Source of the DNA: Heterobilharzia americana
Lineage: Eukaryota; Platyhelminthes; Trematoda; Strigeidida; Schistosomatidae
Direction: 5' to 3'
DNA length: 64,000 nucleotides
Assembly: GCA_944470555.2 (NCBI GenBank)
Contig: OX104127.1
Coordinates: 66,859,646-66,923,645, forward strand
Shown here piece by piece: positions 9,816 to 64,000 of the stretch. The position numbers were made by a program, and so were the translations under genes. The notes below the pieces were generated by a model that made no database searches, was not told the DNA's origin, and saw only the letters and a list, made by a program, of their open reading frames with translations. How positions within the stretch are numbered: position 1 is the stretch's first letter; each line of letters starts with the position of its first letter.

Positions 9816-9850
9816 AAACTTGAAATATTTCCAAATCTCCACAACTCCCT

Positions 9851-9852
<2 letters not shown>

Positions 9853-9885
<33 letters not shown>
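9853..9885. repeat. (TA)n microsatellite
   Basis: About 16 TA units. The run gives a spurious Tyr-Ile tail to a minus-strand frame. Confidence 0.95.
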
Positions 9886-9889
<4 letters not shown>

Positions 9890-10060
9890 CCCGGTGAAAC
9901 AGTATTATTTACTGGATTATGTATCAAGCTGAAATTATTGCTTTTAATTACATAACTGTTTGGTTTAATCTTATAGTTCTGAAGGTGTTTTATTCTTTGG
10001 TTCAGTTGGCTGTAATACTTTCCTCCCATCCGGAATTGATGTTGCTTCATTCCTATTGCA
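9886..10060 (-). mobile_element. PLE family B terminal-repeat relic
   Basis: The stretch GAAACAGTATTATTTACTGGAT near 9,897-9,918 resembles the inverted terminal repeat of PLE family B at 42,360-42,440. Only part is recognisable. Confidence 0.35.
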
Positions 10061-10740: not shown

Positions 10741-11180
10741 GATGTTTTCTTAGCTTAGTCCCCCTTCAGTACACACTAAAATTGACAAAGAAATTCAGTT
10801 ACAGAATCTGATTATTTGTTTGGAAGATAAAATTGACAAGGAGTTGATGACTCTATGTACTATACTAATGGAAAATGGCTACCTAGATAAAATGATAAAG
10901 AAGCATATCATAACAAAAGTAGAATGAAAAGAAGTTACTACAGGTAGCAGAAAATCACTATACGGGTAAGATTTAAAATTGGTGTACTCAGTGAGCTATT
11001 AGTTCATAGAGCACATAGATCAATTTAAAGAACCGTCATTTTCAAAAAATTACGAATTACATTTTCCATATGCCTTACTTGTGACACCGAAACTGTAAGA
11101 ATAATTGCCTAGACTGGTCATTTCCTGTTGTGTTTATCAGTTCAACTGCTTCTATGTAGCTAGCCAGTCACATTGATTAC
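10740..11180 (+). mobile_element. PLE relic: linker and GIY-YIG start
   Basis: A broken plus-strand PLE. Near 10,765-10,925 the frame reads a linker typical of PLEs (ELMTLCTILMENGYLDKMI-like, the NGYP block). Near 11,130-11,165 another frame reads CVYQFNC then FYVASQSH, the GIY-YIG core with a lost Gly. Several frameshifts; dead. Confidence 0.55.
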
Positions 11181-11199
11181 TGCTGTAGGAATTTAATTT

Positions 11200-12985: not shown

Positions 12986-13050
12986 TGATTCCCTTTACAG
13001 ATATACGATCTGGTCTCGAGCTGACGAGTCCCGAACAAAACGGAATACTC
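12985..13050 (+). mobile_element. S-alpha SINE 3' fragment with hammerhead core
   Basis: A short piece: CTGACGAGTCCCGAACAAAACGGAA. Core 1 and half of stem II survive; GAAAC is broken. It abuts the 5' end of the RTE copy at 13.05 kb, which probably inserted into it. Confidence 0.5.
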
Positions 13051-16000
13051 ATCTTCGAGCCTCGCCTAGTTTACAAGCCGGTCCTAAGCCCGGATAAAGA
13101 GGGACGGTTGGGCATACGGTTAGCAACCCTATAACGGAAAACAAATCCAATCGCTAACGAAACCTCAAAACACAAACAAAATATAAAAAATAAAAACAAA
13201 CTTTTTCCCCTCCGTAATCGGAGAGACGAAATGAAGCCGGCTGGTGAAAGGATTCGGGAAGCCAATTAGCCGGGCTGATGTGTCTTCTCACTCTCGATAA
13301 AAGCGAAAGTAAACGTGGGGACATGGAATGTCCGCACCATATGTGAACTTAGCAAGGCTGCCCAGATTGCCAAAATGATGAGAAGGTATGGCATCAAGGT
13401 GCCAAGCTAGGAATCTGAGAAAATAGATGGAATGGGAGTGGGTTCTGCAAACTGTCAACTAAAGGGTCAGTAATCTACTCCGATATTATCACCCACACGA
13501 CAGCCACGAGCACACTGAGTTTTCAAGTGGCTATTATGATGACCCCAACAGCATCGAAGGCTCTCATGCAGTGGGAAACAGTCTCTTCATGCAGGATCAT
13601 AACAACAAGGTTCAACTCAAAAGGAAGGAAGGTCACAATCATACAATGCTATGCTATGCCCCTACAAATAATGCAGATAAAGAGAAGAAGAAGGAATTCT
13701 ACAGATAACTGCAATCAGTACTGGACAAGACTTCAGCTGGCGACATCAAATTCATTCTAAGGGGTGACGGCAGACAAAACAGGAAGAGAACGAATCATGG
13801 TGAAATGAATGAGAACGGAGAACTGTTTGCAGATTTCTGTGCATTCAACGATTTGTAATTGGAGGCAGTATGTACAAACACAAGGATATTCACAAAGTGA
13901 CATGGACTTCACCGGATGGACACTCTACACTAAAAATCAGATCGACTTCATCTCAATGTGGAAAAAGTGGAGACGCAGTCAGCCTGCTTGACACAAGGTC
14001 AAGAAGGGGAGCAGACGTAGGTTCAGATCACTCACTGTCTAGTGCACGGAACCTTCAAAATCGAGTTGAAGGCCTTCAGAGAAATTGGTGACAGACCACA
14101 GTTCAAGTTCAACACCCACCCAGAAACTGAACTGAAGGACGAAACTACAAAGGACATCTTCACGTCAGCTAGTCATCAGGAAAAATGAAACGGGAGACAT
14201 TGAGCAACGTCCTTGAAGGGACCTGTGTGGAAGAGAACTGAAATTCTTTGAAAGAGGTTTGGAAAGAAACCTGCATAACTGTGCTAGGAAGGAAGAAGAA
14301 GCAAGGCAAGGAATGGGCAAAGAAGTGGAGAAGAGTACACGGAAAGACAAAAGACACTTCTGCGACACATTGGCAAGTGAAGCAGAACAGGCTGCTGGTA
14401 GGAGAGACCTGACAACATTGTACCAAATGGCCAGGTTATTTGCCGTCTGGGAAGAAAACAACACAGAAGAAATCAATGAGAGGTAGTGAAGGTAACTCGT
14501 TTAGAAATACCCCCAGCAACGGCAGAAGTACATAAGAACACAGGCCCTCCGACAAAAGCAGAAGTGAAGTCCTGAATGCTATAAAACTGCTGAAATACAG
14601 GAAGGCAGCAGGACCAGATGGAATTCCACCAGAAGCACTGAAAACAGACTTAGAGACAACAGCGAACATGCTCACACCACTATTACAGAAGGTTTGGAAG
14701 GAAGGAAGGAAAGGTACCTGCCGGTCGATTGTCAAACTCTCAAAGAAGGGAGACCTGAGTGTTTGCTAGAACTGGCGTGGAATCATGCTGCTGTCCCTGT
14801 TCACCCCGAGTAAGCAAATTATTATGCTGCATCATCCTGGAGAGACCAAAAGATGCGATGGATTCAAAACTACGACCGGAACAGGCTGGCTCACAGGCTT
14901 CAGGAAGAACAAATCATTTGCGGATCAAATTGCAACGCCGTGCTACATATCATCATAGAACAGAGTACAGAATGGCAGTTAACTCTCTACCTTAACTTTA
15001 TCAACGAAAATGCCTTTGATAGCATCGACCGAGAAATAATTTGGCAACTGCCACAATGCTACGGAATACCACAAACCTTTATCAACCTCATTCAACAGCT
15101 ATATGAAGACGCCATGTGCCAAGTAATTCACAAAGGAAAGCTAAGTGACGCCTTTGAAGTGAAGACAGGAGACAGGAGTAAGACAAGGCTCCCTACCATC
15201 ACCCATCATCTCCCTGATTGTGGTGGACTAAACTGGATCATGCAGCAAACCGTGAGGAGTGAGAAGGTGGGCATACGCTGGACCGATGAAAAAACCTTAG
15301 AAGATTTGGATTTCGCCACCGATGACGATTTATGTCTATTGTCGCACAAACTTCAAGATCTACAGGTGGAAGCTAACAAGTTGACAGAAGAGGCAGGGTG
15401 AGGCAGTGAAGACGGGACTTCAAGTGAACGTAGAGAAGACGTAGGTGATGAAGATACCCAACCAACACCATCAACGACAACAACAAGCACCAATCACCAT
15501 GAACGGCAGAAATCTAAAGGAAGTTGTCTCTTTCACCCACCTAGGCAGGGAAGCATCGTTCTAACTACAGGCGGTGGCACAGACGAGGATATCACAACCA
15601 GGATCGGAAAGAAAGAAAGACAGGATTTCACCAATCTGAAATCAGTGTGGAAAACTACTGCACTCAGCATAAAGAACAAGATCAGGATTTCCAACACTAA
15701 TGTCAGCCAACTCAGTGCTTCTATATGGTTCAGACACTTTGGGTGTCACGAAAACCACCTCCAACAAACTACAGACATTCATCAACAGATGCCTACACTA
15801 GAAACTGACATTGAAGATCAGATGAATTGCCAGAAAGAATAAGCAACAAGGAACTCACTGTGGCTGGCTGGCAGGCAGGCTGGCAACAAACCAACCAAGG
15901 ACCTATCACTCAACAAGTATGCAGTGGAAGAAAGTGGAGATTGATTGGGCATACACTGAGAAGGTTGATTGGGGACATCAGGCATCAGACCGGGCCAGGC

Positions 16001-16215
16001 GAGGCCAGGCGAGGCCAGGCCGTTGAGTGTAATCCGGAGGGGAATTGACGAGTTGGGCATGTGAGTCGAGGGTGATATGGAGGAGATGATGTGAGGAAGA
16101 AATGAAAGGTTGTGGGCAGATTTGGTCCCAGGTTCAAAAGAGAACAGAGAAGAGTGTAATGGAGGTGTGCTACTGAAGCCTTATGTTCCACTAGGAACCC
16201 AAAGGAAAAAATTAG
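13050..16215 (+). mobile_element. RTE retrotransposon, long but broken (copy R2)
   Basis: Plus strand, nearly full length: 5' UTR (13,050-13,310), endonuclease (13,310-14,060), linker, RT (about 14,560-15,660), and a 3' UTR ending near 16,215 with CCACTAGGAACCCAAAGG. Visible protein blocks include GTWNVRT (about 13,320), NQIDFIS (about 13,938), PDGIPPEAL (about 14,616), EQAGSQ (about 14,881), and the AFDSIDREIIWQL and IPQTFINLIQQLYED blocks (15,008-15,106). The catalytic YADD block is represented only by DFATDDDLCLLSH (about 15,310), and the usual GVRQGCLLSP block is altered to a TRLPTITHH reading. Many frameshifts. Copy R4 at 22.6 kb shares these lesions. Confidence 0.85.
14853..15401 (+). 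pseudogene. RTE reverse transcriptase core, decayed ORF
   Basis: 182 residues from the RT domain of copy R2. It contains NENAFDSIDREIIWQL (the first catalytic Asp block, in AFDSID), IPQTFINLIQQLYED and LSDAFEVKTG. Then comes a scrambled stretch where functional RTEs read GVRQGCLLSP, followed by WIMQQTVRSEKVG and LEDLDFATDDDLCLLSHK, the degenerate second catalytic motif (FADD expected). The frame start is arbitrary: the real ORF begins at about 13.3 kb but is interrupted. Nearly the same residues recur at 22,615-22,878, so the defects predate the duplication or amplification. Confidence 0.8.
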
Positions 16216-18150: not shown

Positions 18151-19070
<920 letters not shown>

Positions 19071-22592: not shown

Positions 22593-23670
22593 AAAGCTGA
22601 GTGACGCCTTTGAAGTGAAGACAGGAGATAGAAGTAAGCCAAGGCTCCCTACCATCACCCATCATCTCCCTGATTGTGGTGGACTAAACTGGATCATGCA
22701 GCAAACCGTGAGGAGTGAGAAGGTGGGCATACGCTGGACCGATGAAAAAACCTTAGAAGATTTGGATTTCGCCACCGATGACGATTTATGTCTATTGTCG
22801 CACAAACTTCAAGATCTACAGGTGGAAGCTAACAAGTTGACAGAAGAGGCAGGGTGGGGCAGCGAAGACGGGACTTGAAGTGAGCGTAGAGAAGACGGAG
22901 GTGATGAAGATACCCAACCAACACCATCAGCAACAACAACAAGCACCAATCACCATGAACGGCAGAAATCTAAAGGAAGTTGTCTCTTTCACCCACCTAG
23001 GCAGGGAAGCATCGTTCTAACTACAGGCGGTGGCACAGACTAAGATATCACAACCAGGATCGGAAAGAAAGAAAGACAGGCTTTCACCAATCTGAAATCA
23101 GTGTGGAGAACTACTGCACTCAGCATGAAGAACAAGATCAGGATTTCCAACACTAATGTCAGCCAACTCAGTGCTTCTATATGGTTCAGACACTTTGGGC
23201 GTCACGAAAACCACTTCCAACAAACTACAGACATTCATCAACAGATGCCTACACTAGAAACTGACATTGAAGATCAGATGAATTGCCAGAAAGAATAAGC
23301 AACAAGGAACTCTGGCTGGCTGGCTGGCTGGCTGGCAACAAACCAACCAAGAACCTATCACTGAACAAGTATGCAGTGGAAGAAAGTGGAGATTGATTGG
23401 GCATACACTGAGAAGGTTGATTGGGGACATCAGGCATCAGACCGGGCCAGGCGAGGCCAGGCGAGGCCAGGCCGTTGAGTGTAATCCGGAGGGGAATTGA
23501 CGAGTTGGGCATGTGAGTCGAGGGTGATATGGAGGAGATGATGTGAGGAAGAAATGAAAGGTTGTGGGCAGATTTGGTCCCAGGTTCAAAAGAGAACAGA
23601 GAAGAGTGTAATGGAGGTGTGCTACTGAAGCCTTATGTTCCATAAGTAACCCAAGCGAAAAGTAATAATC
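22593..23670 (+). mobile_element. RTE 3' part (copy R4)
   Basis: Begins inside the RT at LSDAFEVKTG and runs to the 3' UTR end near 23,650 (TTCCATAAGTAACCC). It is almost identical to 15,140-16,200 of copy R2, including the same defective RT core, with 5 GGCT units at about 23,313-23,335 and two GGCGA-type repeats at about 23,447-23,470. 5'-truncated; no function expected. Confidence 0.85.
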
Positions 23671-27910: not shown

Positions 27911-29791
27911 TTACCAAGGAAGGTTTAATGTGACAACAAATTGTTTATGAACACATAAAGGTGGTTTCAACTTCCTAATAGCTAAGGCTTCAACAAATTT
28001 CAGGATCCCTCCCCAACATGTTTTGTAAATAGGTGTAAAGGAAGTAGCCACATCAATCTTGTGACCTGTCTCAACGATATGTTTAGCGATCGAAGAACTT
28101 GGACGTCTGCTACCAACATTTATAGGTTCAGGTGATTTAATTTGCTTCTGAAGCCACTTTGGAATATGTTCCGAGGCCCTTACTTGCATGGATCTATTAG
28201 TCCTCCCTATGTATGTGTCACCACACGTACATTTGAATTGGTAGATACAATGGGATGTGACATTATCGTTCACATGCTGTGGGGGTTTGGGGGAATATAA
28301 GGGCTTCGTGGTTTCGATTACTCGAACCCTGGCTGCATAGTAAGTCCTTCTAACAGCAGCGTTAAGTCTCTGCTTAAGGATTGCACTCTGAGAGTCACCT
28401 TTGTACGGAAGGCTGATGAAGACATCCTTCTTTGGGACTGACTGCAGTTCTAGTTTTGACGCTCTGGTGATTTTGTTCTGCCTGATAAATGTTGATGGAT
28501 AGTTATTTTCCAACAAAATATCGGTCAGTGTTCCTCTTTCATCTTCTAAAGTATCCTCGGTGCATATTCGTTGAATTCTGCTGAATAAGCACCTTACTAA
28601 CGTTCGCTTGTACTGAACTGGGCAAAAGCTATGGTAATTCAGATATTGCCCTGTCCATGTAGGTTTTCTGTAGATAGATCGTTTTATGGATCCATCCTGC
28701 CTTCGACTAATTAATATATCTAGGAACGGCAAGCAGTCATCTTCCTCTCTTACACATGTCAAAGATATGCTGTTCTGTACTTCGTTCAGTCGGTTTAGAA
28801 TTGAAGTAGCCTGATTTGAGTTTTCACAAATAATCAGGATATCGTCAACATATCTTCGATACAGATGGGCTTGGTCTATTAAGTTCTCGGCTAAGTTCTC
28901 AACGTGTGACATAAATATGTCGGCTAGGAGGGGACCTAAAGGACTTCCCATAGCGACACCATCAACCTGGCGGAAATGTTCGCCCTCAAAGGTGAATTTA
29001 ATATTGTTTGTACATAAAAGTAACAGCTGTTTTAGGTGATCCAAAGTAATGGGTATCGGAAACTTATGCACAGAAATATAACCACATAAAATGTCAATTG
29101 TCTTGACCAAAGGGACATTGGTAAATAATGAGTTAACATCAAATGAACACATAAATTTACTCTTTATGTTGACATGCTCAAGGCATTTGATTACTTCAAA
29201 TGTATCTTTTAAGGAATACTTACAAAATTGCTTCTTAATGGGATCCAATAACTCCACTAGCCACTGGGCAAGCTTATGCGTTGGCGACTTACACATTGAC
29301 ATTATGGGACGTAAGGGGTTGTTGGGTTTATGTACTTTGGGCAAACCGTAAAGATGTGGGAATCGGGATTCAGTTGGTTTCAGTAGGGCGAATTTTTGAC
29401 TGGTAATGACGTTCATTTCGAGCAGTTTCACTAGATTAGCGGTCACAGTTCCCTGTAACAATTGTACGTCTTCTGAAGAACAATCCTTAGTGAATTTATT
29501 TTCATCTTCAAGAATCGATGACATTTTACACTTATATTCGATTTTATCCATGATCACGACACCTGAGCCTTTGTCAGGTCTGAGGATAATAATATCAGGG
29601 TTCTCTCGTAGTTCCTTCATAGCTCTGAAATGTTCAGAAGTTAGAATGCTTTTCTGGTTCTGATGGCTATCACAAAACTGGTGGGCGATATCCACCATCT
29701 TGGCTTTCAGCCATCCCTGGTCCTCAATTGAAGTTGGGACGAGAGGTTTCAACTGGTTGTATAGGTTTTCAAACTGTGCATGGGTAGCCAA
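27911..29791 (-). CDS. PLE reverse transcriptase / GIY-YIG endonuclease
   Basis: A 626-residue open frame, the only long intact retroelement ORF here. It would nick DNA and reverse-transcribe its own RNA in the nucleus. RT blocks in order: DKGSGVVIMD (about 73-82), GLPKVHKP (149-156), FDVNSLFTNVP (217-227, first catalytic Asp), VAMGSPLGPLLAD (279-291), RRYVDDILI (312-320, catalytic DD), LPFLDILISRR (354-364), IYRKPTWTG (373-381). The C-terminal GIY-YIG domain has CIYQFKC (515-521), TYIGRTNRS (526-534), SEHIPKW (540-546) and KFVEALAIRKLKPPLC (598-613, catalytic Glu). The start is TTG, not ATG; the frame continues upstream with conserved residues, so the true N-terminus is lost. No internal stop or frameshift seen, suggesting a fairly recent copy. 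Confidence 0.92.
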   Translation of the reverse strand: MATHAQFENLYNQLKPLVPTSIEDQGWLKAKMVDIAHQFCDSHQNQKSILTSEHFRAMKELRENPDIIILRPDKGSGVVIMDKIEYKCKMSSILEDENKFTKDCSSEDVQLLQGTVTANLVKLLEMNVITSQKFALLKPTESRFPHLYGLPKVHKPNNPLRPIMSMCKSPTHKLAQWLVELLDPIKKQFCKYSLKDTFEVIKCLEHVNIKSKFMCSFDVNSLFTNVPLVKTIDILCGYISVHKFPIPITLDHLKQLLLLCTNNIKFTFEGEHFRQVDGVAMGSPLGPLLADIFMSHVENLAENLIDQAHLYRRYVDDILIICENSNQATSILNRLNEVQNSISLTCVREEDDCLPFLDILISRRQDGSIKRSIYRKPTWTGQYLNYHSFCPVQYKRTLVRCLFSRIQRICTEDTLEDERGTLTDILLENNYPSTFIRQNKITRASKLELQSVPKKDVFISLPYKGDSQSAILKQRLNAAVRRTYYAARVRVIETTKPLYSPKPPQHVNDNVTSHCIYQFKCTCGDTYIGRTNRSMQVRASEHIPKWLQKQIKSPEPINVGSRRPSSSIAKHIVETGHKIDVATSFTPIYKTCWGGILKFVEALAIRKLKPPLCVHKQFVVTLNLPW

Positions 29792-29879
29792 ATCTGATGA
29801 CTGCTTTCGAGGAACACAAAATTTAAGTCCAAGGGATAGGGCAGAATACTTTTATGACAAAATATTGTTTTCTTTTTAA

Positions 29880-49626: not shown

Positions 49627-50525
49627 CGTTGGCTACGGTGGCACCATTTGCAGCAACAGCATCAGCAACAGCAACACGAGTCAGGTAGGAGGGGAGCATC
49701 ACCAAGACCAACGTGACAAATTCAACTCTTTAGGGTCTGTGCCTCAATTTGTAGACAAGCAATATGTAAAACGAACAGCCGGTGTTACGGATCTTATGCC
49801 CGACATACGTAAGACCCATTATTAGAGAATGGGATTCAAGCAGCCACTCCATGTCTTAAATATGGGGCTGTTATACTACAGAGGGTCTATGGAGTAGATA
49901 ACAGGATGGCCAAAGGACCGTCCCACCCCTCCTAAGAAAGAAGCCTGGATCGATTAGATCTGTTTCCATCATCATACCATCATTCTCATATTAACTTTAA
50001 TCATCTCAAATTATCTGAAACTATTCGCATGACAGAATATCATCAAAAGTCCTTCAAGTAATGTCTCGTACCGAGTTACGAGACGCTAGAAGTCTCTACA
50101 GAAATACTAAGTGTCTGTACCTTCTCTTGCTACTTTCCAAGAGGCATTGAATCTCTACATTACTACCACCAGCAAGGATTAATATAGGTGACTAGTCTGG
50201 CATCCGTAATCTTTAATACTTAAGAATCGAAACTGTGTTGACAGTCACATGTTATAATCAAGCGCGTTAGACAATTAAATAAAACCGCGATAACCTTTAG
50301 CTGTAGTTCACATGCTAGTCGAGTTTCTCAAAAAAAATGTATCCATCATCTCTGCTTATAGAATATGTCTGCTTTGAACCTAATGATATTTTCTCTCCAA
50401 ACAATTCGTAGATCATTATTGCTGAGGATGCATCGATCATATTTTCATTCTTCGATAGGTTGTGTGATATAGACATACTTACCGGCTGGTGACAAGGGTC
50501 ACCTCTTCTCAAATCATTGCTGGTG
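49627..50525. other. intergenic or unidentified repeat
   Basis: Starts GC-richer with a CAG/CAA-rich strip (CAGCAACAGCATCAGCAACA), which may be part of a larger element around the TIR unit. From about 49,960 it is plain AT-rich DNA with no supported gene. Confidence 0.35.
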
Positions 50526-51190
50526 ACAATAAAAGGGTCATGATTAAACCATACAGCCCAGACAACACAATACCACTGAAAACTTCTATTTTCCTAGACC
50601 TGAAGTCGGCATTTTACTCCATCGATATATAGGCGTCGTAGTATTGTCTGGATGGGAACTGATTACTGAGTAAGTGTATTAGGAAAATCAAGCCGACTCA
50701 CTACAAATTAGCAGTGCAGTAAAAGCTTACGAAGGCTTGTCATCTAAAATAGAAACAACCGGCAGTGCTCGTCAAGATGTTCACTGTTATCATTCTTACA
50801 TAACTTAGCTAAAGGTATATCGGTGAAAGTCATCTCACTTACTTCTAGCTTCATAACGACTGAACCACTGCCGAAAGTTGTTTGACTAAGTTAAAGCACT
50901 TAGATGATATAGTCGTGCTCGGCAAAGACCCTACTAAATTCATGGTTTTCTCAAGGCTGATCGGAAATCCAAATATTCTTGGGATATGTTGTGAACCTGT
51001 GGAATGTAACATTATTCTTCAGGACTGGTCCTCACCCACTCCAAGCTTAAAAGTAGGAAATCAAGTCATCGAATATGTTGACTACTTTGTTTACTTGAGG
51101 AGTTGTATCAACCCTAATTCCCTATTTTGGAACAACTTGATGGTAACAATCGCCACCCAAACTACGGTCATGAGTGTGCACTGCGATGAC
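50525..51190 (+). mobile_element. CR1-like LINE RT palm fragment
   Basis: Plus strand. FLDLKSAFYSID near 50,593-50,628 is the first catalytic Asp block (FLDLKAAFDSVD). Decayed frames follow, then HLDDIVVLGKDPTKF at 50,898-50,942 (YADDIVLLGED expected; Tyr-Ala replaced by His-Leu) and LQDWSSPTPSLKVGNQVIEY, then VDYFVYLRSCINPNS at about 51,078-51,120. Truncated at both ends. Confidence 0.7.
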
Positions 51191-51194
51191 ATTC

Positions 51195-52445
51195 CGAGTT
51201 GAGGTGGAATACATGTTGAGTGCCACTTGATTTCCAGTGGTTTTCGTGGAAGATGTGAATCGTGTGTTAAAAGTACTGATAAAAGAATCATTTCTTGAAC
51301 AACAGGGGTATGCCTTATGGTAAGCTGGTGAAATAACGATACAAAATATCTCACTTTGTTAAGTGTATTATACTATGTTTACTGATGTCAGTAGGACAGT
51401 ATAATAAGCTTCATGCAGGAGTGTTATACAAAAATTGTCAACTTCTTCACTTCAGTCCAACATGCGTAGTGAACCAGGACCATACACATATACATGCTGA
51501 AGATGCTTACTACAGAAAGAAGCAAGAAGACAGATTGGAAGGAAGGATTGTTTATTGTCAACAAGTGGGACGGTAGCCGTTAAATATGGTACACCTTGCA
51601 TTGAAACCATCATTCCCTCTTCTGATTCTCTCTTGATTGGCTCTACATACACCTACATTGTCTCTTGCTTTTCTCCCGGCAGAGTCCTTACCCATTCCTG
51701 GTAATCCCCTATGATTTTTGACACCCTATCAACACATACACTTATGTCCATTCTTGTCAGTAACGCCCAATACACCACTGATTTTTCCACTGCGACAAAT
51801 TACTGCTGTTGGATTTGTTTCAGTCATTAAAATATGTTTCGAAAATATATGTACACTCATATACTTTTTAAATATTTTCAACTAATCGCCTTACAATTTC
51901 ACATTGAAACTAGTAGAAAACACCATAGTAGTTTGTAGTCGGCTATTTGTACATTATATAACCCTGCTAAAAGTAGTTAACTAGAATTGAGCGTTTTTGT
52001 GTTGGCTAGATTGACATGCATTGCCAAACTTACCACTGATTTTTCATCGCCCAACTCCCAATCACAAAACAACAATTGACCGACAGGTTAAAAGGAAAGC
52101 TTAACAACATCTAGTCGCGTTACGTACTATCACTCACAGTTCTGTGATTATTTTTATCAATATAACCACAATTAATTTATTGGCGAATAATGTACAGTGA
52201 GGAGATTACCTTCAAAGTTCACTTAAAAAATTCGATACTGTATTAAAATTATTCACTTCACCATGGGGTTTGTTATTATTACTATTATTATCATTGAACG
52301 AATTAAGACGGACACATCAAACAAAAGGAAACGCAAAGAACAACAACTAATCAGTTCATAATTTATTTTCACACGTCTTGATCAACACGAAAAATAGGAC
52401 ATATCACAGGTGAATTCTACACCTAGAAAATAGTCATCCAGATTA
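51195..52445. other. intergenic, nothing firmly recognised
   Basis: Short overlapping frames near 51,385-51,652 on both strands lack motifs, though they may be CR1 3' sequence. From 51,660 to 52,440 plain AT-rich DNA; the last part should hold the 3' UTR of the minus-strand gene at 52,450. Confidence 0.35.
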
Positions 52446-52449
52446 AGAT

Positions 52450-54426
52450 TTACTTCATTGAAAGTTTCCTACGAAACGTATTCACATACACGTTAGCCTC
52501 TGAACATTCTGTACGATCAAGTTTTTCAAGTCTCTTTAGTGAGCAACTGATGAATAAAGGTTCACAGCCAATACATCGATCACAAAGTTTTTTTAACTCC
52601 TCAATATTATCGTAAGAGGATGAAATGGCAGCTTCATTAAGACCTGTAATATGAGAAAAGAAAGGAGAAGAAATCAAACAGTGAGTTATCAAATCCACTA
52701 GACTCTTTTATTACGCAGAAGCATTTCCTGGAGACAAAAAAGTGGATAGGAGCAGACTGTGCATTCCAAAACCTCGTGAAAATTTATTCCGCATATCGTA
52801 TCCCACTCTCCACATCTAAATGAAAAATCATATGGTGAATGCAAATGAGAACTTATCAACTGAAACAGTTTCATTTTGTCGAATTTCAGTAGTCAACAAT
52901 ATCCGACAGCAAACATACATTTTTCTCATACGAATATTTAAGCGTTCTCAACAATCCTTTGAAAACACTTCAGATAAGCCCTTTTGTGAGTTCTAAAATA
53001 CTTGTTTTATCCAATTAAGATTTGAAAATGACACTTATTTCCTTCCAAAACTGAACACCTCTCCAGTAAACAACCAAGTCTCACCAACTTGTCTTCATAC
53101 AATTCGAACTAATCCGTGTGATTGTTTGCTTGCCTCATCTTCCACTCAACACCAACACCAATGATTCATCATCACAATGATAACTATTTGCCCTGTTCAC
53201 TAACATTTCATTCTTACGAAAATCAGTGAGATCTTGAAGAAGTGGAAATTTCGGAATTTATACACTCAATGAAAACATATGTAAGTGAAACAATCTAATG
53301 TGTGATTGAGTGTTCATATAATGTGTACTCGTCATGAATTCAAGACACTGAATTCTTCTGCAGCAATCATTTACCCGATGTTAAATGGCAGCAGTTTTCA
53401 GAACTGCTTCCATCAATGCTGTGAGTTCGTCAGTACACCACATGAAGTGAGTGTTGATTCTGATGTGTAGCATTTTTGCTTCGGAGTCACCTGACTTGAT
53501 TCAATAATCTTAACTCTGTCTGCCAGTCTTTAACAAGACTACATAAGCACAAAACTCCGAAAATACTATAAAAACTCACCCAACCACCTCAGATTAAGAT
53601 CTTTACCTCCTGAGGTAATACTACATTTACAACCATTAACGTTTACCCATATAGGAGATTATATAACTGCCTTCAATACGGAAGTAGATCTTTCCTAAAT
53701 TCTTTTGCCAATCAAATGGTTGGGATCAAAGTAATTCATTTTCAAATAACGAACACATTTCATTTACGCTTCAAAAGTACAAGGTTTGTGAGATGTCAAA
53801 TTGAAAAGATTCTATATGATACTAATATAGTCTGAATTGTTTATAAAGAGAGTTCACCTCTGACTACAGTACTGGATGAAATGAATTCGAATATCCGAGG
53901 TGAAATCAGTTCCCTTGAGATTGCAGATACACCTAGCTGACGAATGCAAAATAGTACGAAAATGTCGGGTTAAGCCTTATCACCGATTACCTCCAACCAT
54001 TCAACATACCACACCCTAACAACCGGTGCATTGATTCACCAATCACATGACATTATAATTATCCATTATTCTACAGATGTTATAGATTTCCACAATAACT
54101 ACTTACAGTTTGCACATTTCAGTCTCCTTCTTGTGAGGTGGTTGTTTCTTGTGTTCACCTACATCACTATTATACTGCGGAATTTCATTCAGGAGACATG
54201 TCTCGATTACCTTAGACAAAAGTGCAAAGTGAGAATCAAGCTGAAGAACAACACGGACATCGTCGAATCATCGATACTCCAAAAGAAGGCAGTTCGCAAA
54301 TACCTTGTAAACTCACCACCTCATTCTTACCACTGAATAATAGTGAGGAGTGTGGTTTGTATAGACTAATTTCATCAGTTTCCAGATGACGAAATCAATT
54401 ATTTCGAGTGTCATTGAGGAAGATGG
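52450..54426 (-). CDS. cysteine-rich spliced gene, last exons (left copy)
   Basis: Minus strand. Four exons fit with matching phases: 54,426-54,331 (96 nt, phase 0-0; an alternative acceptor at 54,366 would give 35 nt, phase 1-0), 54,174-54,107 (68 nt, 0-2), 52,815-52,715 (101 nt, 2-1), 52,643-52,450 (194 nt with stop). Donors are GTAAGA, GTAAGT and GTAATA; the last acceptor follows TTCTTTTCTCATATTACAG. The joined tail is Cys-rich: HKKETEMCKLCGEW, LECTVCSYPLFCLQEMLL, EELKKLCDRCIGCEPLFISC. Pairs of CxxC suggest zinc binding; the CxxCxGCx6C pattern faintly recalls the C-terminal Cys cluster of Rev3-type DNA polymerases, but no polymerase block is visible and I do not assign it. The first two exons lie in the left arm of a large inverted repeat; intron 3 (1.29 kb) carries a SINE. 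Confidence 0.6.
53850..54000 (+). mobile_element. S-alpha-like SINE in left arm
   Basis: Head with CTGACTACAGTACTGGATG and B box AATTCGAATATCC, then AGCTGACGAATGCAAAATAG, TACGAAAATGTC: core 1 kept, stem II broken, GAAAA kept. It lies inside an intron of the cysteine-rich gene. Mirror copy at 63,655-63,805. Confidence 0.55.
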
Positions 54427-54730
54427 CTGATCAAATAAATGTACTCATTTCGAAATTAGAAAAAAAGAGTGAGACGCACGTCAAACTCCAGCCTGCATTC
54501 ACGTCAACATCTTTACCCTTGAAATGAAGTTTCAGGTGCAGAAACGATTCCAATAATGAGTCATCAATTGACGAACAACCATTGAATTGCCTTCAGTCAG
54601 TATCTCATCATAGTCGCACAAATAGTCACTGTTTATATTTTCAACATTGTGGACATATTCCTAGTTATATCAGCAATATACAAAATAAATTGTGAAGGAT
54701 GTCCAGAAGGTTTATCAAACAGCAACTCAC

Positions 54731-54866
54731 CTGAACAACGCTTCACGATTAAACTTCTCGTAAAACAGCTCCTAAATAATAACTCCAACCTTTTAGTACA
54801 CTTCGAATACGTTGATGCATCACTTTGAATGACGGTGAGTAGAAGCATCCAAATAACAATTGAGAC
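54731..54866 (-). CDS. possible upstream exon of the cysteine-rich gene (left copy)
   Basis: 136 nt bounded by TTTTGCCTTTCAG on its 5' side and CAG-GTGAGT on its 3' side, both strong. The open frame reads VSIVIWMLLLTVIQSDAS (hydrophobic, perhaps a signal or membrane segment), KCTKRLELLFRSC and LIVKRCS, leaving phase 1. It would join the short form of the next exon (acceptor at 54,366, phase 1) to continue the gene, giving about 171 residues from the internal Met. The preceding exon, if any, was not found. The mirror copy is 62,789-62,924. Confidence 0.4.
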
Positions 54867-55168
54867 CTGAAAGGCAAAATCTCTTCCTCCTCACTTAACA
54901 TTTATATTAGAGGTAAGCGATTGACAGTAAATAAAATACACATTCAGCCATAAAGCCACATTGATTCAGGAGATTCGATGTTTCAAATCAAACATCAGAA
55001 AGCTCCATATACTTTATTTAGTAATATGATTTATTGCATGTTAACCAGAGGAGTATGCTTCATTGCAAACAATGTGTGGAGTTAGAGGAGAGTTTCAGAA
55101 AATGATCAACAGAATTCTGGCAATTATTCACCCCCATTCCAGTTCATATCTTCACTTCTACTACATAC

Positions 55169-55340
55169 GAGCATGTGCATTTCGCTTAACCACTGAATGG
55201 GACTTCATTGCATCCCACATCGCTTCACCTACACAGGCATCCTCCTTAAATATCTCCCTATCAAATACAATAATCCGATTTGTAAGTAAACTGTTCCGAT
55301 CACAAATTACCACCATCTGAACACCAGCAATAGCGTCAGT
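55169..55340 (-). CDS. open frame in left arm, possible exon
   Basis: A minus frame (mirror of 62,285-62,494): VVICDRNSLLTNRIIVFDRE, IFKEDACVGEAMWDAMKSHS, VVKRNAHAR, with an AG acceptor candidate (GGTGTTCAG) before it and GTATGT after it. Phase does not connect directly to the next exon at 54,866. Composition looks coding, but the antisense frame is also open. Weak call. Confidence 0.25.
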
Positions 55341-56484
55341 CATGTCTCTCTCTCTCTGACTTCAACATTGAGTGGAAAAACTTTTCATCTCACTCGAGAA
55401 ACGAACCACCATGATTGTAAATCGACATTGTGGACATGTGGTAATGTCCAACACAATATGAGTTCTACACATATTAAAAATTCCATGATCTGGATTGGAA
55501 TTTAGATGGGCAACTGCAACAGTTGTTCAACAGTTTATACAACAGTAGACCAAGAATGAGTCAAGTGTTCAATGCATATATTTGTAGGCATATGACTAAG
55601 ACATGAGCTTATTCATGGTTCAGAAAGGTAAAGTGAAAGCAATAAATGATGCAGATGGGATCAAATCGTCCACATTCCCTCAGGTAACCCTTCTCATACT
55701 CCATATATCATCAAGTAACATGCATGTTTCTAGCTACAATCAACCTAGAAACTATGGTTCCCGTAGTACAGTGGGAAATTAATGACTAGTCTTCGTCAAC
55801 TATGTCAGCCAATTCAACAAACTCCATTCCTACAAACAACTTGTTACCTACTACTCAAGTCGGACTAAGACGATGCAACAATGCTCAAAATCTATTGATA
55901 ACAAGCAATTCAAAGTTTGATCAAGGTGCGTTGTGACACCTTCAAATCACTTATTGAAAGTATTGTGACACCAATGACAAAATATCGAATTGATGATGAC
56001 ACTTCCCAAGCTTTCATATTATCCAATCACTTTCATATAGTAATAAATTGGCTGAATCTCAGCCGCACTACACCTATGACCACTCCGATGATATTCACAA
56101 TGCGCATAACACACATTTATTGACCAACATGAAGTAATTCAAATCAATCTTCAGTCAGTTAGTGGATCAGTTTTCGCACTATCAACAAACTACATCATGG
56201 TCTACGTTAACAATCTCAACAGATGAACAGTTCGTCAACTGCACAACTCTATCCGTGACAGGATTTCCATTAGAGACCACCAAATAAACACCATGAAGTT
56301 GATTCTCTGACACCAGATCTCTGAAATATGCCACTGAAGGACATGACCAGCTAGGAATCACTCACTCTGATCTTCAGATTTTGCCAGCCAGATCAGAGTT
56401 ATTCAGACACCTGTCACTAGTATCATTCATTGTTGTGCTGAGGTCGCCAGACCTCTTGTCTACCCAGAGTATCTGGATTCATGC

Positions 56485-57160
56485 GGAAATCTTTGATTTA
56501 CATCAGTCCGTGTTTGGTACTAACTTGAAATGCAAGTTGTACTGAAGTTCATTTTCAGCTACATTTTTACACCCACGCCACTAGACATTATGTTGTTTAC
56601 TGCAGTTCACTTACTCTCTCATTCACTCACCCACGTATGTGCGTAGATATACATGCATTCTTGTGCACAACTTGATATCAGCCTATTGTACTTCCCAGCT
56701 ACAACGATTAGCCCATTAACATCATTTTAATCATGTTATTATTTTTATTTTAATTATTACTTAGGTCACTTCCGGTGTTGTTTTTTTCAGTTGTTTTTCT
56801 CTTTCATCAAAATGATATAAATTTGCAGTAAGTTTCATCTACGCCAGTTTCAAATAGTCTGAATATCGTTATAATTGTTACAGTGATTGGCGCACTTTAA
56901 TAATGTTTGTTTCGAATAAAGTGAGTTGGATATTTTATTTAATCGAGTTAATGAGTTCCTCCTAATGTGCAATTACGTAAACTCTGAAGTGATTGATTCG
57001 GTTCGATACTTACCTAGTTTCATAACAAACTGGATATATAACAGAATGAACTTATTCAAATATTAACAGATTGTGTAGTACAGAATGCTTTTCAAATATC
57101 AGTCGTTTTCAGGGATAATAGCCAGTGATTAATCTTGATTAAAAATGATTAAAAAAGACT
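56485..57160. other. spacer of inverted repeat, left part
   Basis: AT-rich; no gene seen. Confidence 0.35.
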
Positions 57161-57164
57161 AGTC

Positions 57165-57245
57165 TTGTAGTTCATCTGGTAGAACACTGGTCCGGAGACC
57201 CATTGGTCAGTGATTTAAATCATTCCATGGCTAACATTCTTGTTC
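57165..57245 (+). repeat. tRNA-derived SINE head, second type
   Basis: TGTAGTTCATCTGGTAGAAC (box A-like), with a decayed B box (GATTTAAATCATTCC). Related to 33,778-33,860. Confidence 0.4.
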
Positions 57246-57249
57246 GGTC

Positions 57250-57600
57250 TCCAGCTATCACTCAGTAATAATCTTGAAACTACAATATAAATAAATAACA
57301 CAAAAAGGATAATGAGCTATGGCATGGTTCCTTTTGTCTGATCTAAATACATCAAACCTGATATAACAAGGTAACTGCAGTGAATAGAATGTCCAGGATT
57401 AATATTTTTGTAATAAGCTTGGCAGTGAAAATTGTGTTGATGAATAAATAAGCGAAATTATCTGCGATTTTCGAAATCAAGATTTCTGACTCTGTTCACC
57501 TTTAGCGGTTAGGTTGTTTTAATCAACCTGATGCTTATTTATGTCCGACATTCTGACCATTGAATTTAGGGGTTTGTGGGTATTTAGTGATTTTTCAAGT
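57250..57600. other. spacer, nothing recognised
   Basis: No supported feature. Confidence 0.3.
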
Positions 57601-57800
57601 TGATATTTATCATGGACTGGAATCAGTTGGAGGAACATTGGGAGCCTGGCAGCGCTGGGCAGCTGTTTCGTCCCATTGTGACACTCCTCAGCATTGCGCA
57701 CTAGTGACCCCGCCCCACGGGCCTCAAGCTCAGGACCTTCAGGTTCCATGACCAGGACGTTACTATTCAGCCACTGGGTCAGTATCCAGTGATCCATATT
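57600..57800. mobile_element. foldback F1 copy
   Basis: Left arm TATTTATCATGGACTGGAAT through GTTTCGTCCCATTGTGACAC, then the interior with GGACCTTCAGGTTCCATGACC; the right arm is mostly missing. The frames across it are by-products. Confidence 0.6.
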
Positions 57801-58000
57801 TCCAACTTCTTCCTATTCATGACATATCACGACAATCATCCAGTGTCATCGCTGAGCATTTGTCCTCACTGCCAACAGGTTTGCCCCACCGGTCACGACT
57901 ACTCATTGGAGCTTCGGAAATCACCTCTAGAAGCTAGTCACCAACGAGCACTAGGTCAGTTGAATTTGGAGCTCTGTGGAGATTTAGTGCTTTTTCAAGT
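57800..58000. other. spacer, nothing recognised
   Basis: About 200 bases of moderately GC sequence between two F1 copies; possibly part of an unrecognised repeat. Confidence 0.3.
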
Positions 58001-58002
58001 GG

Positions 58003-58125
58003 GTATTCTTCACAGACTGGAATCAGTTGGAGGAACTTTGGAAACCTGGGAGCACTGAATAGCTGTTTCTTCCTGCTATGAGACGAAACGTTCCTCTAAC
58101 TGATGTCAGTCCATGGTGAACACAG
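58003..58125. mobile_element. foldback F1, internally deleted
   Basis: Both ends are present (TATTCTTCACAGACTGGAAT and GATGTCAGTCCATGGTGAAC), but the middle is reduced to a few bases, leaving about 120 bp. Confidence 0.65.
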
Positions 58126-58214
58126 ACATGAAAATTTTTGTTCATTTCCCGTTTAGATGCATTTCACCTGGAAAATGAGGCTTTTACAAAACATATAATA
58201 CTTTCTACAAACTG

Positions 58215-58400
58215 AATACGAGGTGGAAGTCATGACTCAGTAGTCTAGTTAATTAGGCACTGCTATATGAATCAATAACTTCCAAGTTCTAGTGTTCATC
58301 AGACCTCCGTCACTCACTTGGATACAAGTGCAGCCAACTAACGAGTCCGAAATAAAACGAAACGCGTATAGTGCTTTCCATTGCTTGCTAACACCAACCA
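58215..58400 (+). mobile_element. S-alpha-like SINE with degenerate hammerhead
   Basis: Head CATGACTCAGTAGTCTAG; then CTAACGAGTCCGAAATAAAA and CGAAACGCG at about 58,338-58,368. Core 1 has one change (G5 to A), stem II partner GGAC is now AAAC, the GAAACGCG strand is intact, and the cleavage site is lost (TATAGTG). Confidence 0.6.
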
Positions 58401-58464
58401 AACTACTAAAACTTTCCCCTAAACTAAATATCAAGCAGATGAGTCGCCAACATTCATGGTCATC

Positions 58465-59810
58465 AATATTTTCATCATCATAGAACAGGGCATAGAATGG
58501 CAACCAACTCAACTCTACCTCAACTTCATCCACTTTGAAAAGGCCTCCCACAGCGTCCACCAACAAGTTATTTGGCAGGCAACTGCTCCAACACTATGCT
58601 ATACCACAAACCTTTGTCAATCTCATTCAACAACTATATGAAGACACCACATGCCAAGTAAGTCACAATGGCAGGCTCAGTGATGCCTTTGAAGTGAAGA
58701 CAGGAGACAGGAGACAGGAGACAGGAGTAAGACAAGGCTGTCTACTATCACCCATGCATGATATTTCTGATTGTGGTCTACTCGACTGGATGATGCAGCA
58801 AACAGTGAGGAGTGAGGAGCGAGAAGAGGGTGATGTGCTGGGTGGACCGAGAAAAAGAAAGTGGAAGATTTGGATTTCGCCGATCACCTGTGTCTAATGC
58901 CACACAAAGTTGGAGATCTAGAGGGGAAAACTAACAAGTTGAGAGAAGAGGCGAGGCGAGGCGAGGCAGGACAGGGCAGGACAGTGAAGGAAGAGGGGAC
59001 TTCAAGTGAACGTAGAGAAGACAGAGGTGATGAAGATACACAACCAACAACAACAACAACAACACAAACTGCATTCTCCATCAACGGGAGAAACTTACAC
59101 GGAGTAGCCTCTTTCACCTATCTAGGCAGCGTCATTCAACTACAGGTGGCACGGACAAGGATGTCAAAGCAACCAGGATCGCAAAACAAGACAGGCGTGC
59201 CTTCAGTGATGTGAAAGCAGTGTGGAGATCTGCTGCACTCCACCCAGCGTAAAGTTTGAACAACATCCGGATTTCCAACACCAATTCAGTCAAGTCAGTG
59301 CTCCTATGTGATGGTTGAGAGACTTGGTGCGTTACGAAAAGCATTTGCAACAAACTGTAGATATTGATGAACAACTGCCGACTAGGCTGACTCGTTACTG
59401 AAGCTCAGATGGATTGGATTGCCAGAAAGAATAGGCAGCAAGGAACCCTGACTGTCTGACAACGAAGCAACCAGAACCTATGGCTGAATGAATGTGCAGA
59501 AAGAAGTAGGGATTGGAGATGGATTGGATTGGATTGGATTGTGCATAGACTGAGAATACCGACTGGGGACATCACGCGCCATGCCATGCCATGTCATGCC
59601 ATGCCAGGTCGTTGAGTGGAACCTGAAGGGGGAACGACCCAAGTGAGGGTGACATGGAGGAGATGGTGTGAGGAAGAAATGAGAGCTTGTGGGCTGTCGT
59701 GGAGTGAGGTTCAAAAGATTGCAGAGAAGAGAGTGTAATGGAGATGTGCTACTGAAGCCCTATGTTCCACTAGGAACCCAAGGGATAAATAGTAATAGAA
59801 ATAAGAATAT
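58465..59810 (+). mobile_element. RTE 3' part (copy R8)
   Basis: From within the RT (IIEQGIEW, LYLNFI, PQTFVNLIQQLYEDTTCQVS, LSDAFEVKTGDR) to the 3' UTR end at CCACTAGGAACCCAAGGGA. This copy keeps the GVRQGCLLSP block lost in R2 and R4, so it stems from a different subfamily. Tandem GGCGA and TGCCA units occur at about 58,950-58,985 and 59,580-59,606. Frame-shifted and 5'-truncated. Confidence 0.85.
58535..58897 (+). pseudogene. RTE RT fragment with GVRQGCLLSP block
   Basis: 120 residues from the RT palm: IPQTFVNLIQQLYEDTTCQV, LSDAFEVKTGDRR with a short duplication of the GDRRQE codons (three GACAGGA units near 58,700-58,722), then GVRQGCLLSPMH. After this, WMMQQTVRSEE leads to a frame change, and the DFADHLCLMPHK equivalent of the catalytic block lies in the next frame (58,870-58,905), where the second Asp is replaced. 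Non-functional. Confidence 0.75.
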
Positions 59811-59814
59811 TTTC

Positions 59815-61170
59815 GTCGAAATACATTATTCAAAAATAGTATTTAACAGGCATTGCTCCGTTGTGAGATAGTTGCTAGATAATATTGCTCACATCTGATC
59901 ATATTCACCTAGCTCCGCTTACTTATCTCTCGTAAACCTTGGAAGTTTTCAGTCTTCACTGGCTGACTAGATGTTTCCTCTCTCTTTCTTCTTAAACTCT
60001 TTCCTACTCAATTTCGCACGCCATTTATCAACAGATCATTTGGAAGTTTTTGTGTGCATCAACTGGAGTGTTATTCGGTCAGAATTAATGAAAACATCTG
60101 AAACTTATTCATCGCTTGTGTGAAGATTTTAATATCACTATAGACAAATTAATGAAGCGATACCTGTCAGGTTAGTCAAACGGCAAAATATTTTATTTTC
60201 CAAATAGCCTTTCGGATACGATTTTCAATCGATATTCACACAGTTTTGAGACACAGCTTCAATAATTCAAGTTTCCACTGTTCTATTGAAGCAGGAGCAG
60301 TGGAATTCTCTAGAACCTCAAAAGGTAGATTTTCCTTGATATATTTGACGTTGACTCGACAAACAGTGATTCGAGTTTCAATCACTCCCTGCACTAAACC
60401 AAGTTATTTTATAGGACCATCACTGCATCCACCACTAAGGTATGATTGCATTCGTAGCTACAGATGAGTTTTTCACTTGATTCCTCACCCTTACATTATT
60501 TGGAGGTTCGGGTATCAGGGTGGGCATTACCTTGCAATCCAAACCCCTCAGGCTAGTGTAAGTGAGTCCTCCTGTCAGCATTGAACCTGGAAATCAGCGT
60601 TTGCCACTTGAAACCACGTAGAATAAAAAAAGTTACTAATTGGAGAAAATTTGGTTTTTTTTAGGCGGATGTTAAATATTTTTGAGGAACCAGGGACATG
60701 GTTGAAACTGCGAAGGGCGTTTAAACATGGAGACCATATTTCATTTAAAAATGACTAGTTCAATCCTTTAAATCGAAGACGTAAAACAATCAAATTGAAT
60801 ACCTGATATTTTGAGGCACACAAAATGTTTTGAACCCAGTCAAAACAACCAATCTGGTAATTTCCACTGAGTTACAACATGTCTCATCACTTATTAGACG
60901 GAGATAACTCATTAACACTCATTGACCAGAAAATAAACATAAATAATGAGGAACACGGGTCTTCGGTTACCACACATACTAATCTGTAGATTTCAGCAAC
61001 AGGATCACAATGATTAAAACAACAGATGATACTCTGGTTCGTTTGATATCAAGCTTATCACTTGTGTACACGAATAGATTCACCATACAGAGACGAAATG
61101 TTCAGGGAAAATGAAACTGGACAAATTACTTGAGATAACCGTTATATCAAGAGTCACCTGGTCTATGTGC
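59815..61170. other. spacer of inverted repeat, right part
   Basis: No supported gene; a 73-codon plus frame at 60,246-60,467 has no motif. No repeat of the window's families was recognised. Confidence 0.4.
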
Positions 61171-62284
61171 GAAAGTATCAGGATACACTGGGCAGACACG
61201 AGGTCTGGCGACCTCAGCACAACAATGAATGATACTAGCGACAGGTGTCTGAATGACTCTGATCTGGCTGGCAAAATCTGAAGATCAGAGTGAGTGATTC
61301 CTAGCTGGTCATGTCCTTCAGTGGCATATTTCAGAGATCTGGTGTCAGAGAATCAACTTCATGGTGTTTATTTAGTGGTCTCTAATGGAAATCCTGTCAC
61401 GGATAGAGTTGTGCAGTTGACGAACTGTTCATCTGTTGAGATTGTTAACGTAGACCATGATGTAGTTTGTTGATAGTGCGAAAACTGATCCACTAACTGA
61501 CTGAAGATTGAGTTGAATTACTTCATGTTGGTCAATAAATGTGTGTTATGCGCATTGTGAATATCATCGAAGTGGTCATAGGTGTAGTGTGGCTGGGATT
61601 CAGCCAATTTATTACTATATGAAAGTGATTGGATAATATGAAAGCTTGGGAAGTGTCATCATCAATTCGATATTTTGTCATTGGTGTCACAATACTTTCA
61701 ATAAGTGATTTGAAGGTGTCACAACGCACCTTGATCAAACTTTGAATTGCTTGTTATCAATAGATTTTGAGCATTGTTGCATCGTCTTAGTCCGACTTGA
61801 GTAGTAGGTAACAAGTTGTTTGTAGGAATGGAGTTTGTTGAATTGGCTGACATAGTTGACGAAGACTAGTCATTAATTTCCCACTGTACTACGGGAACCA
61901 TAGTTTCTAGGTTGATTGTAGCTAGAAACATGCATGTTACTTGATGATATATGGAGTATGAGAAGGGTTACCTGAGGGAATGTGGACGATTTGATCCCAT
62001 CTGCATCATTTATTGCTTTCACTTACCTTTCTGAACCATGAATAAGCTCATATCTTAGTCATATGCCTACAAATATATGCATTGAACACTTGACTCATTC
62101 TTGGTCTACTGTTGTATAAACTGTTGAACAACTGTTGCAGTTGCCCATCTAAATTCAATCCAGATCATGGAATTTTTAATATGTGTAGAACTCATATTGT
62201 GTTGGACATTACCACATGTCCACAATGTCGATTTACAATCATGGTGGTTCGTTTCTCGAGTGAGATGAAAAGTTTTTCCACTCA

Positions 62285-62494
62285 ATGTTGAAGTCAGAGA
62301 GAGAGAGAGACATGACTGACGCTATTGCTGGTGTTCAGATGGTGGTAATTTGTGATCGGAACAGTTTACTTACAAATCGGATTATTGTATTTGATAGGGA
62401 GATATTTAAGGAGGATGCCTGTGTAGGTGAAGCGATGTGGGATGCAATGAAGTCCCATTCAGTGGTTAAGCGAAATGCACATGCTCGTATGTAG
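62285..62494 (+). CDS. open frame in right arm, possible exon
   Basis: Mirror of the minus frame at 55,169-55,340, with the same residues. It begins within a GAGAGAGA strip; the more credible exon is 62,340-62,486, from an acceptor GGTGTTCAG to a donor GTATGT. No domain recognised. Confidence 0.25.
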   Translation: MLKSERERDMTDAIAGVQMVVICDRNSLLTNRIIVFDREIFKEDACVGEAMWDAMKSHSVVKRNAHARM

Positions 62495-62788
62495 TAGAAG
62501 TGAAGATATGAACTGGAATGGGGGTGAATAATTGCCAGAATTCTGTTGATCATTTTCTGAAACTCTCCTCTAACTCCACACATTGTTTGCAATGAAGCAT
62601 ACTCCTCTGGTTAACATGCAATAAATCATATTACTAAATAAAGTATATGGAGCTTTCTGATGTTTGATTTGAAACATCGAATCTCCTGAATCAATGTGGC
62701 TTTATGGCTGAATGTGTATTTTATTTACTGTCAATCGCTTACCTCTAATATAAATGTTAAGTGAGGAGGAAGAGATTTTGCCTTTCAG

Positions 62789-62924
62789 GTCTCAATTGTT
62801 ATTTGGATGCTTCTACTCACCGTCATTCAAAGTGATGCATCAACGTATTCGAAGTGTACTAAAAGGTTGGAGTTATTATTTAGGAGCTGTTTTACGAGAA
62901 GTTTAATCGTGAAGCGTTGTTCAG
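62789..62924 (+). CDS. possible exon of the cysteine-rich gene (right copy)
   Basis: Mirror of 54,731-54,866: acceptor GCCTTTCAG, donor GTGAGT, hydrophobic start, KCTKRLELLF and LIVKRCS. Reading through the donor gives a further 33 codons to a stop at 63,022, so an unspliced form is also possible. Same uncertainty as the left copy. Confidence 0.4.
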
Positions 62925-63228
62925 GTGAGTTGCTGTTTGATAAACCTTCTGGACATCCTTCACAATTTATTTTGTATATTGCTGATATAACTAGGAATAT
63001 GTCCACAATGTTGAAAATATAAACAGTGACTATTTGTGCGACTATGATGAGATACTGACTGAAGGCAATTCAATGGTTGTTCGTCAATTGATGACTCATT
63101 ATTGGAATCGTTTCTGCACCTGAAACTTCATTTCAAGGGTAAAGATGTTGACGTGAATGCAGGCTGGAGTTTGACGTGCGTCTCACTCTTTTTTTCTAAT
63201 TTCGAAATGAGTACATTTATTTGATCAG

Positions 63229-64000
63229 CCATCTTCCTCAATGACACTCGAAATAATTGATTTCGTCATCTGGAAACTGATGAAATTAGTCTATACAAAC
63301 CACACTCCTCACTATTATTCAGTGGTAAGAATGAGGTGGTGAGTTTACAAGGTATTTGCGAACTGCCTTCTTTTGGAGTATCGATGATTCGACGATGTCC
63401 GTGTTGTTCTTCAGCTTGATTCTCACTTTGCACTTTTGTCTAAGGTAATCGAGACATGTCTCCTGAATGAAATTCCGCAGTATAATAGTGATGTAGGTGA
63501 ACACAAGAAACAACCACCTCACAAGAAGGAGACTGAAATGTGCAAACTGTAAGTAGTTATTGTGGAAATCTATAACATCTGTAGAATAATGGATAATTAT
63601 AATGTCATGTGATTGGTGAATCAATGCACCGGTTGTTAGGGTGTGGTATGTTGAATGGTTGGAGGTAATCGGTGATAAGGCTTAACCCGACATTTTCGTA
63701 CTATTTTGCATTCGTCAGCTAGGTGTATCTGCAATCTCAAGGGAACTGATTTCACCTCGGATATTCGAATTCATTTCATCCAGTACTGTAGTCAGAGGTG
63801 AACTCTCTTTATAAACAATTCAGACTATATTAGTATCATATAGAATCTTTTCAATTTGACATCTCACAAACCTTGTACTTTTGAAGCGTAAATGAAATGT
63901 GTTCGTTATTTGAAAATGAATTACTTTGATCCCAACCATTTGATTGGCAAAAGAATTTAGGAAAGATCTACTTCCGTATTGAAGGCAGTTATATAATCTC
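63229..64000 (+). CDS. cysteine-rich spliced gene, right copy, runs off the window
   Basis: Exons 63,229-63,324 (96 nt, phase 0-0; or 63,290-63,324, 35 nt, phase 1-0) and 63,481-63,548 (68 nt, 0-2) with the same splice sites as the left copy: acceptors TTTGATCAG and ATTCCGCAG, donors GTAAGA and GTAAGT. They encode EIIDFVIWKLMKLVYTNHTP and YNSDVGEHKKQPPHKKETEM, ending in Cys-Lys. The two last exons (the Cys-rich tail) would lie about 0.8-1.2 kb beyond 64,000 if the arm continues that far. The two gene copies are transcribed away from each other. Confidence 0.55.
63655..63805 (-). mobile_element. S-alpha-like SINE in right arm
   Basis: Mirror of 53,850-54,000, essentially identical, in the intron of the right gene copy. 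It must predate the duplication that made the arms. Confidence 0.55.

Follow-up and report, generated by a model that had tools for sequence, protein, structure and literature searches.

The genome of the trematode Heterobilharzia americana carries, on contig C1, an inverted repeat whose two 6.47-kb arms hold divergently transcribed copies of a single gene, and the differences between the arms are clustered towards the arm ends, leaving a central tract that contains none. We consider it likely, with a probability of roughly 0.7, that a local inverted duplication produced the arms and that gene conversion subsequently homogenised their middle, a reading based on one genome sequence. The original prediction of a recent inverted duplication is supported, as is its mention of gene conversion, to which the zero-difference tract flanked by diverged edges is likely due.

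Arrangement of the inverted repeat and its surroundings

The window, i.e. the whole 64-kb stretch of DNA analysed, corresponds to C1:66859646-66923645 in the 664.9-Mb, 337-contig genome. The next 70 kb were added, giving 134 kb in total, and the window numbering was carried on as 'ext' up to 134000; the part of the right arm after 64000, up to ext 67650, is also numbered L009:1-3650. An inverted repeat starting at 53655 had been predicted. The sequence confirms the repeat, which reaches past the end of the window; its arms (Table 1) are 99.44% identical over 6,470 aligned columns, and the start at 53655 is therefore just the mirror of the window end. The claimed sum of paired positions, 117,655, holds for 53655-56473 outside a stretch of about 290 bp at 55344-55630, in which small indels offset the register by one or two positions before it is regained; the visible 1,703 nt at 53655-55357 are 100% complementary to their mate. 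A chance origin of the repeat is excluded by the length and identity of the arms. The arms themselves were the only two full-length places in the genome found for 53700-56400, a 2.7-kb section of the arm, and a megablast self-comparison of the 134 kb yielded six pairs of at least 500 bp and at least 90% identity, four of them from the inverted-repeat locus.

Table 1. Coordinates of the features of the inverted-repeat locus, in window numbering; ext denotes positions beyond 64000.
Feature	Position	Strand	Remarks
Left arm	50008-56473	-	6,466 bp; mate 61182-67650; 99.44% identity, 35 difference events
Right arm, in-window part	61182-64000	+	Runs on to ext 67650 (L009:3650)
Spacer	56474-61181	.	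4,708 bp; single full-length place in genome
Zero-difference tract, left arm	52012-55343	.	3,332 bp holding none of the 35 events; mate between ext 65643 and 62311
Left-copy start exon	54731-54866	-	ATG at 54848; acceptor CTTTCAG; donor CAG/GTGAGT (exon/intron)
Left-copy last coding exon	52450-52643	-	Stop TAA; AATAAA 82 bp past stop
Right-copy start exon	62789-62924	+	ATG at 62807; coding part 62807-62924
Right-copy last coding exon	ext 65012-65205 (L009:1012-1205)	+	CDS match to left copy
SINE-like dispersed repeat, in gene intron	53860-54010	.	Both arms; other copies 72-83% identical
Old degenerate remnants, presumably reverse-transcriptase-like, outer arm	50300-51200	+	ORFs; no Pfam match over cut-off
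Older repeat sequence, spacer	57560-58140	.	Copies near ext 76020-76371, 72-88% over 34-226 columns
Degenerate non-LTR retrotransposon piece, taken to be RTE-like, spacer	58473-59808	+	Inverted copy ext 77643-78988, 96%

The SINE that the arms were said to share is a SINE-like multi-copy repeat and, being present in both arms, probably predates the duplication. When the 53700-56400 piece was compared with the genome (40 of 413 candidates scored), two of the 43 matches were the arms at 100% and the other 41 covered the SINE-like stretch alone. The ORFs of the outer arm are presumably reverse-transcriptase-like, as judged by eye from their motifs. The right arm ends (ext 67650) against a fragment of the older spacer repeat family, at ext 67651-67777 (75%).

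The spacer had been described as full of young repeats that could have bridged the duplication. Common repeats are indeed present, as the large number of search candidates shows, but their copies look old. A genome search with the spacer, in which 40 of 30,384 candidates were scored, gave 42 matches: the spacer itself at full length and 41 within query positions 2000-3362. Apart from one inverted copy at 96%, these 41 are 72-84% identical, the long ones 72-78%. The retrotransposon piece, which we take to be RTE-like, matches RVT_1 under the curated cut-off. Its inverted copy lies 18 kb away and differs by 26 substitutions in 1,325 aligned bases and by eight indel events; this close pair is better read as a local inverted duplication than as a young transposition, because the other scored copies are only 72-84% identical, and its age is better read as roughly that of the arms. 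A young spacer transposon as the bridge was set aside: the long outside copies are at 72-78%, the sole 96% copy is this nearby inverted duplicate, and a close copy elsewhere is unlikely, with 40 of the 30,384 candidates scored.

A span of 30 kb shows at least three local duplications. One of them, a direct tandem duplication of 4.38 kb (ext 66154-70536 / 70537-74925; 99.95%), has its start within the outer part of the right arm. Once the junction, at which TCAGCA meets TCACCA, is set aside, the tandem copies differ by a single substitution; the first copy has the same letter there as the left arm, so the change is probably in the second copy. A stretch of 1.5 kb is present in triplicate, and at 17 of its columns, a few of them at the ragged outer end, the two right-hand copies are alike and the left arm differs.

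It is unlikely that the palindrome is an assembly artefact made by joining, in inverted orientation, two alleles of one locus that have identical middles and ends about 1% apart. The 134 kb hold no N letters, and the locus sits within a 162.6-Mb contig. The arm divergence could be allele-sized, but an unsplit hairpin read would yield neither diverged ends nor a 4.7-kb spacer that occurs at full length once in the genome, and a search with the 53700-56400 piece, which leaves aside the outer 3.7 kb of the arm, gave no third genome copy. A nearly perfect tandem duplicate adjoins the inverted repeat, and near-identical tandem copies recur at another locus, U2AF2 on contig C8, where three tandem matches are spaced by 7.3 and 7.5 kb and the two compared share 99.95% identity across 4,185 bp, which may mean that young tandem copies are over-represented in the assembly. 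This doubt weighs more on the tandem duplicate than on the palindrome, because 35 differences separate the arms and the spacer between them has a single full-length place.

Clustered differences between the arms and probable gene conversion

The differences between the arms are few, as their earlier description as 'only sparse' implied (35 events over 6,470 columns, comprising 20 transitions, nine transversions and six indels), but that description overlooked their strong clustering. The outermost 2,004 bp (50008-52011) hold 21 events (1.05%) and the zero-difference tract holds none; four events lie in the 715 bp of 55344-56058 and ten (2.41%) in the innermost 415 bp (56059-56473), so that the inner 1.1 kb of the arm has 14 events and the outer 2.0 kb has 21. 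The event-free gap spans 3,334 columns, compared with 2,553 for the largest random gap, and was matched by none of 200,000 uniform placements; for substitutions alone (n = 29) the gap is 3,591 bp, as large as in none of 1,000,000 placements, this null leaving out mutation-rate variation along the arm, and the inner-end differences being clustered too. The inner edge of the tract is a CT microsatellite in which the arms are one unit apart.

The zero-difference tract is likely to be a gene-conversion tract. Diverged ends around an identical middle are the trace expected of gene conversion between arms and support this reading, and purifying selection at the protein level cannot account for the tract because only 312 bp of it are known to code. 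A local inverted segmental duplication would have set the two gene copies in mirror orientation, with their 5' ends facing the spacer, and the arms would then have diverged, from about 1% in the outer part to 2.4% in the innermost 0.4 kb. Ectopic gene conversion, in which one arm is repaired from the other, would subsequently have transferred 3.3 kb or more, the intron and both known coding exons among it, so that most likely one copy recently overwrote the other. Conversion between the arms is favoured because they are close and inverted, and a conversion that covered the middle would explain why the genes are now identical while the arm ends still differ.

Alternatively, the middle may have been recopied by a second duplication or a template switch, or the palindrome may have formed in one event and acquired mutations clustered at its ends. 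The tandem duplication and the inverted RTE-like pair nearby suggest that template switching may be active, but in practice an in-register replacement copy cannot be told from a long conversion tract, and clustered mutation would need to skip 3.3 contiguous kb in both arms; we regard these routes as very unlikely. The identity tract could also stem from assembly or polishing, or from a further copying event, later in time and different in kind.

The duplicated gene

The same candidate exons had been expected in both arms, and they are present there, with a 312-nt coding sequence that is identical throughout between the left and right copies. The gene consists of two known coding exons (136 bp and 194 coding bp) separated by an intron of 2,087 bp, and it encodes 103 amino acids with eight cysteines. 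Both copies lie within the identical tract and are transcribed away from the spacer. The gene model is a letter-for-letter match to an independently predicted 103-residue protein (P0001), and a search of the genome with this protein (665 Mb, E ≤ 10, all five candidates scored) gave four matches, two per exon and one of each in either arm.

In the protein search (E ≤ 1, 23 candidates) the sole match was an identical 103-residue 'unnamed protein product [Heterobilharzia americana]', the record of which has two member sequences on two contigs. No relatives outside the species itself were found at E ≤ 1, with a sensitivity set by shared five-residue words. This search supports a lineage-restricted gene, and the gene appears to be an orphan as far as the search shows.

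The product is possibly secreted. Its N-terminus looks hydrophobic by eye; the annotated start gives only about 12 such residues, and an upstream exon could extend them. Thirteen candidates for an upstream exon encoding a longer signal peptide were obtained by a generic donor score, none of which was selected. No Pfam family scored above its cut-off in eight translations, and a single PDB sequence match was obtained, at E 3.3. The AlphaFold single-sequence model of P0001 is all-helical and weak (mean pLDDT 66.3), and Foldseek returned seven matches at E ≤ 10, none of them at E ≤ 0.001; no fold is claimed, because of the weak model and this Foldseek result. Schistosome micro-exon genes (MEGs) are described as having exons of 3-81 bp between long introns (PMC10526429). 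Identity as a MEG was rejected on the basis of the two exon lengths and the single intron, although further micro-exons might lie in the intron or upstream.

It is quite improbable that the conversion tract owes a position centred on the gene to selection that preserves two copies, identical in sequence and transcribed divergently, of a secreted, lineage-specific host-interface protein in a small, duplication-prone autosomal stretch, acting through dosage or through the fast spread of new variants to both copies. Were this so, the locus would be an autosomal fluke analogue of sex-chromosome palindromes.

Comparison with known palindromes and chromosomal location

As in other palindromic duplicates, the copies are linked and inverted with long, near-identical arms, and a homogenised tract that includes non-coding sequence lies beside diverged arm. 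The homogenisation of mirror gene pairs by conversion is already well known, and the fluke case is an instance of this known process. The available text of one report describes Drosophila Hsp70Aa/Ab and Amy-p/Amy-d as palindromic gene pairs under ectopic gene conversion, and argues that the mirror orientation favours conversion over copy-number change (PMC3924832). The fluke pair resembles these in being linked mirror paralogues that are homogenised as a pair, the Hsp70 genes lying on chromosome 3R. Unlike Hsp70, an ancient and conserved family, the fluke gene is an orphan in the protein search and is seen in one genome; and whereas some Drosophila amylase conversion is reported there to be confined to coding regions (PMC3924832), the intron and flanks are homogenised in the fluke tract.

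Mammalian sex-chromosome palindromes, as portrayed in the portions available of two reports (PMC3403216, PMC6790999), likewise combine mirror arms, a spacer, a gene within the arms and conversion; the fluke locus differs from them in that its arms are 6.5 kb long, its edges are about 98-99% identical and, by two markers, it lies off the sex chromosome. Among schistosomes, a point of likeness is offered by the SmPoMuc mucin multigene family of Schistosoma mansoni, whose intronic repeats are proposed to be homogenised through gene conversion, but the SmPoMuc genes are repeat-bearing mucin genes at several loci and on several chromosomes, and the sections available of that report do not describe mirror arms (PMC2576457). 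No schistosome inverted gene duplicates with conversion were found among the papers listed from the literature searched, the coverage of which is thin for subscription journals. If real, the locus would be a clean natural flatworm example of inverted gene copies in which a conversion tract can be seen, and would illustrate a way in which a schistosome may come to have two copies of a young gene and maintain them without differences, seemingly on an autosome; the general understanding of palindromes and gene conversion is unchanged.

The suggestion of a sex-specific chromosome did not hold. Schistosomes are described as female-heterogametic, with a ZW system (PMC8662593, in the part available), and U2AF2 and mago nashi (mag-1) are placed among the S0 genes on the ZW pair of S. 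mansoni in the accessible parts of two reports (PMC8662593, PMC9187692). A genome search with U2AF_lg (TIGR01642) gave 35 matches, the three over the cut-off all being on C8, and all three matches to Mago_nashi (PF02792) are likewise on C8. As both Z markers map to C8 and the window is on C1, C1 is probably an autosome, the exception being a chromosome fusion that makes it sex-linked. A sex-chromosome palindrome kept to protect a sex-limited gene is therefore most improbable, despite an architecture like that of such palindromes as far as they are described in PMC6790999; the outer arms, moreover, are 1% different. The lower-scoring U2AF_lg matches are RNA-binding proteins elsewhere in the genome, C1 included.

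Repeats in and beside the window

A 4.38-kb tandem duplication, the copies of which carry one true difference, starts within the outer right arm of the inverted repeat. Self-comparison of the 134 kb revealed a direct repeat of about 1.07 kb with 97% identity, and the 4-base unit GCCA is repeated in 65 copies with 99% matches. Five type I hammerhead ribozymes, which are typical of Penelope-like or SINE-like elements, lie in window 5603-13059, and one ORF appears by eye, from its sequence, to be Penelope-like.

Feature coordinates (window numbering, carried past 64000 into the following 70 kb, of which L009 and L010 are pieces; G000, searched genome)
Feature	Position	Strand
Tandem duplication	66154-74925 (L009:2154 to L010:925)	
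GCCA repeat	18480-18739	
Direct repeat	15137-16209; 22593-23661	
Hammerhead ribozymes	5603, 5864, 8296, 9668, 13015	both
Penelope-like ORF (putative)	27911-29851	
U2AF2 loci L024 and L025	G000:C8:22126125-22142131	

U2AF2 matches on contig C8

U2AF2 is a candidate sex-determining gene in schistosomes. A profile search of the genome gave three tandem U2AF2 matches on C8, spaced 7.3 and 7.5 kb, which may represent a real tandem array, a Z/W mixture or an assembly duplication. Two of the three loci were compared and show just two differences across 4,185 bp, an identity of 99.95%. The first of these loci or the second contains a reading frame of 531 amino acids, and the longest in its partner is 306 amino acids.
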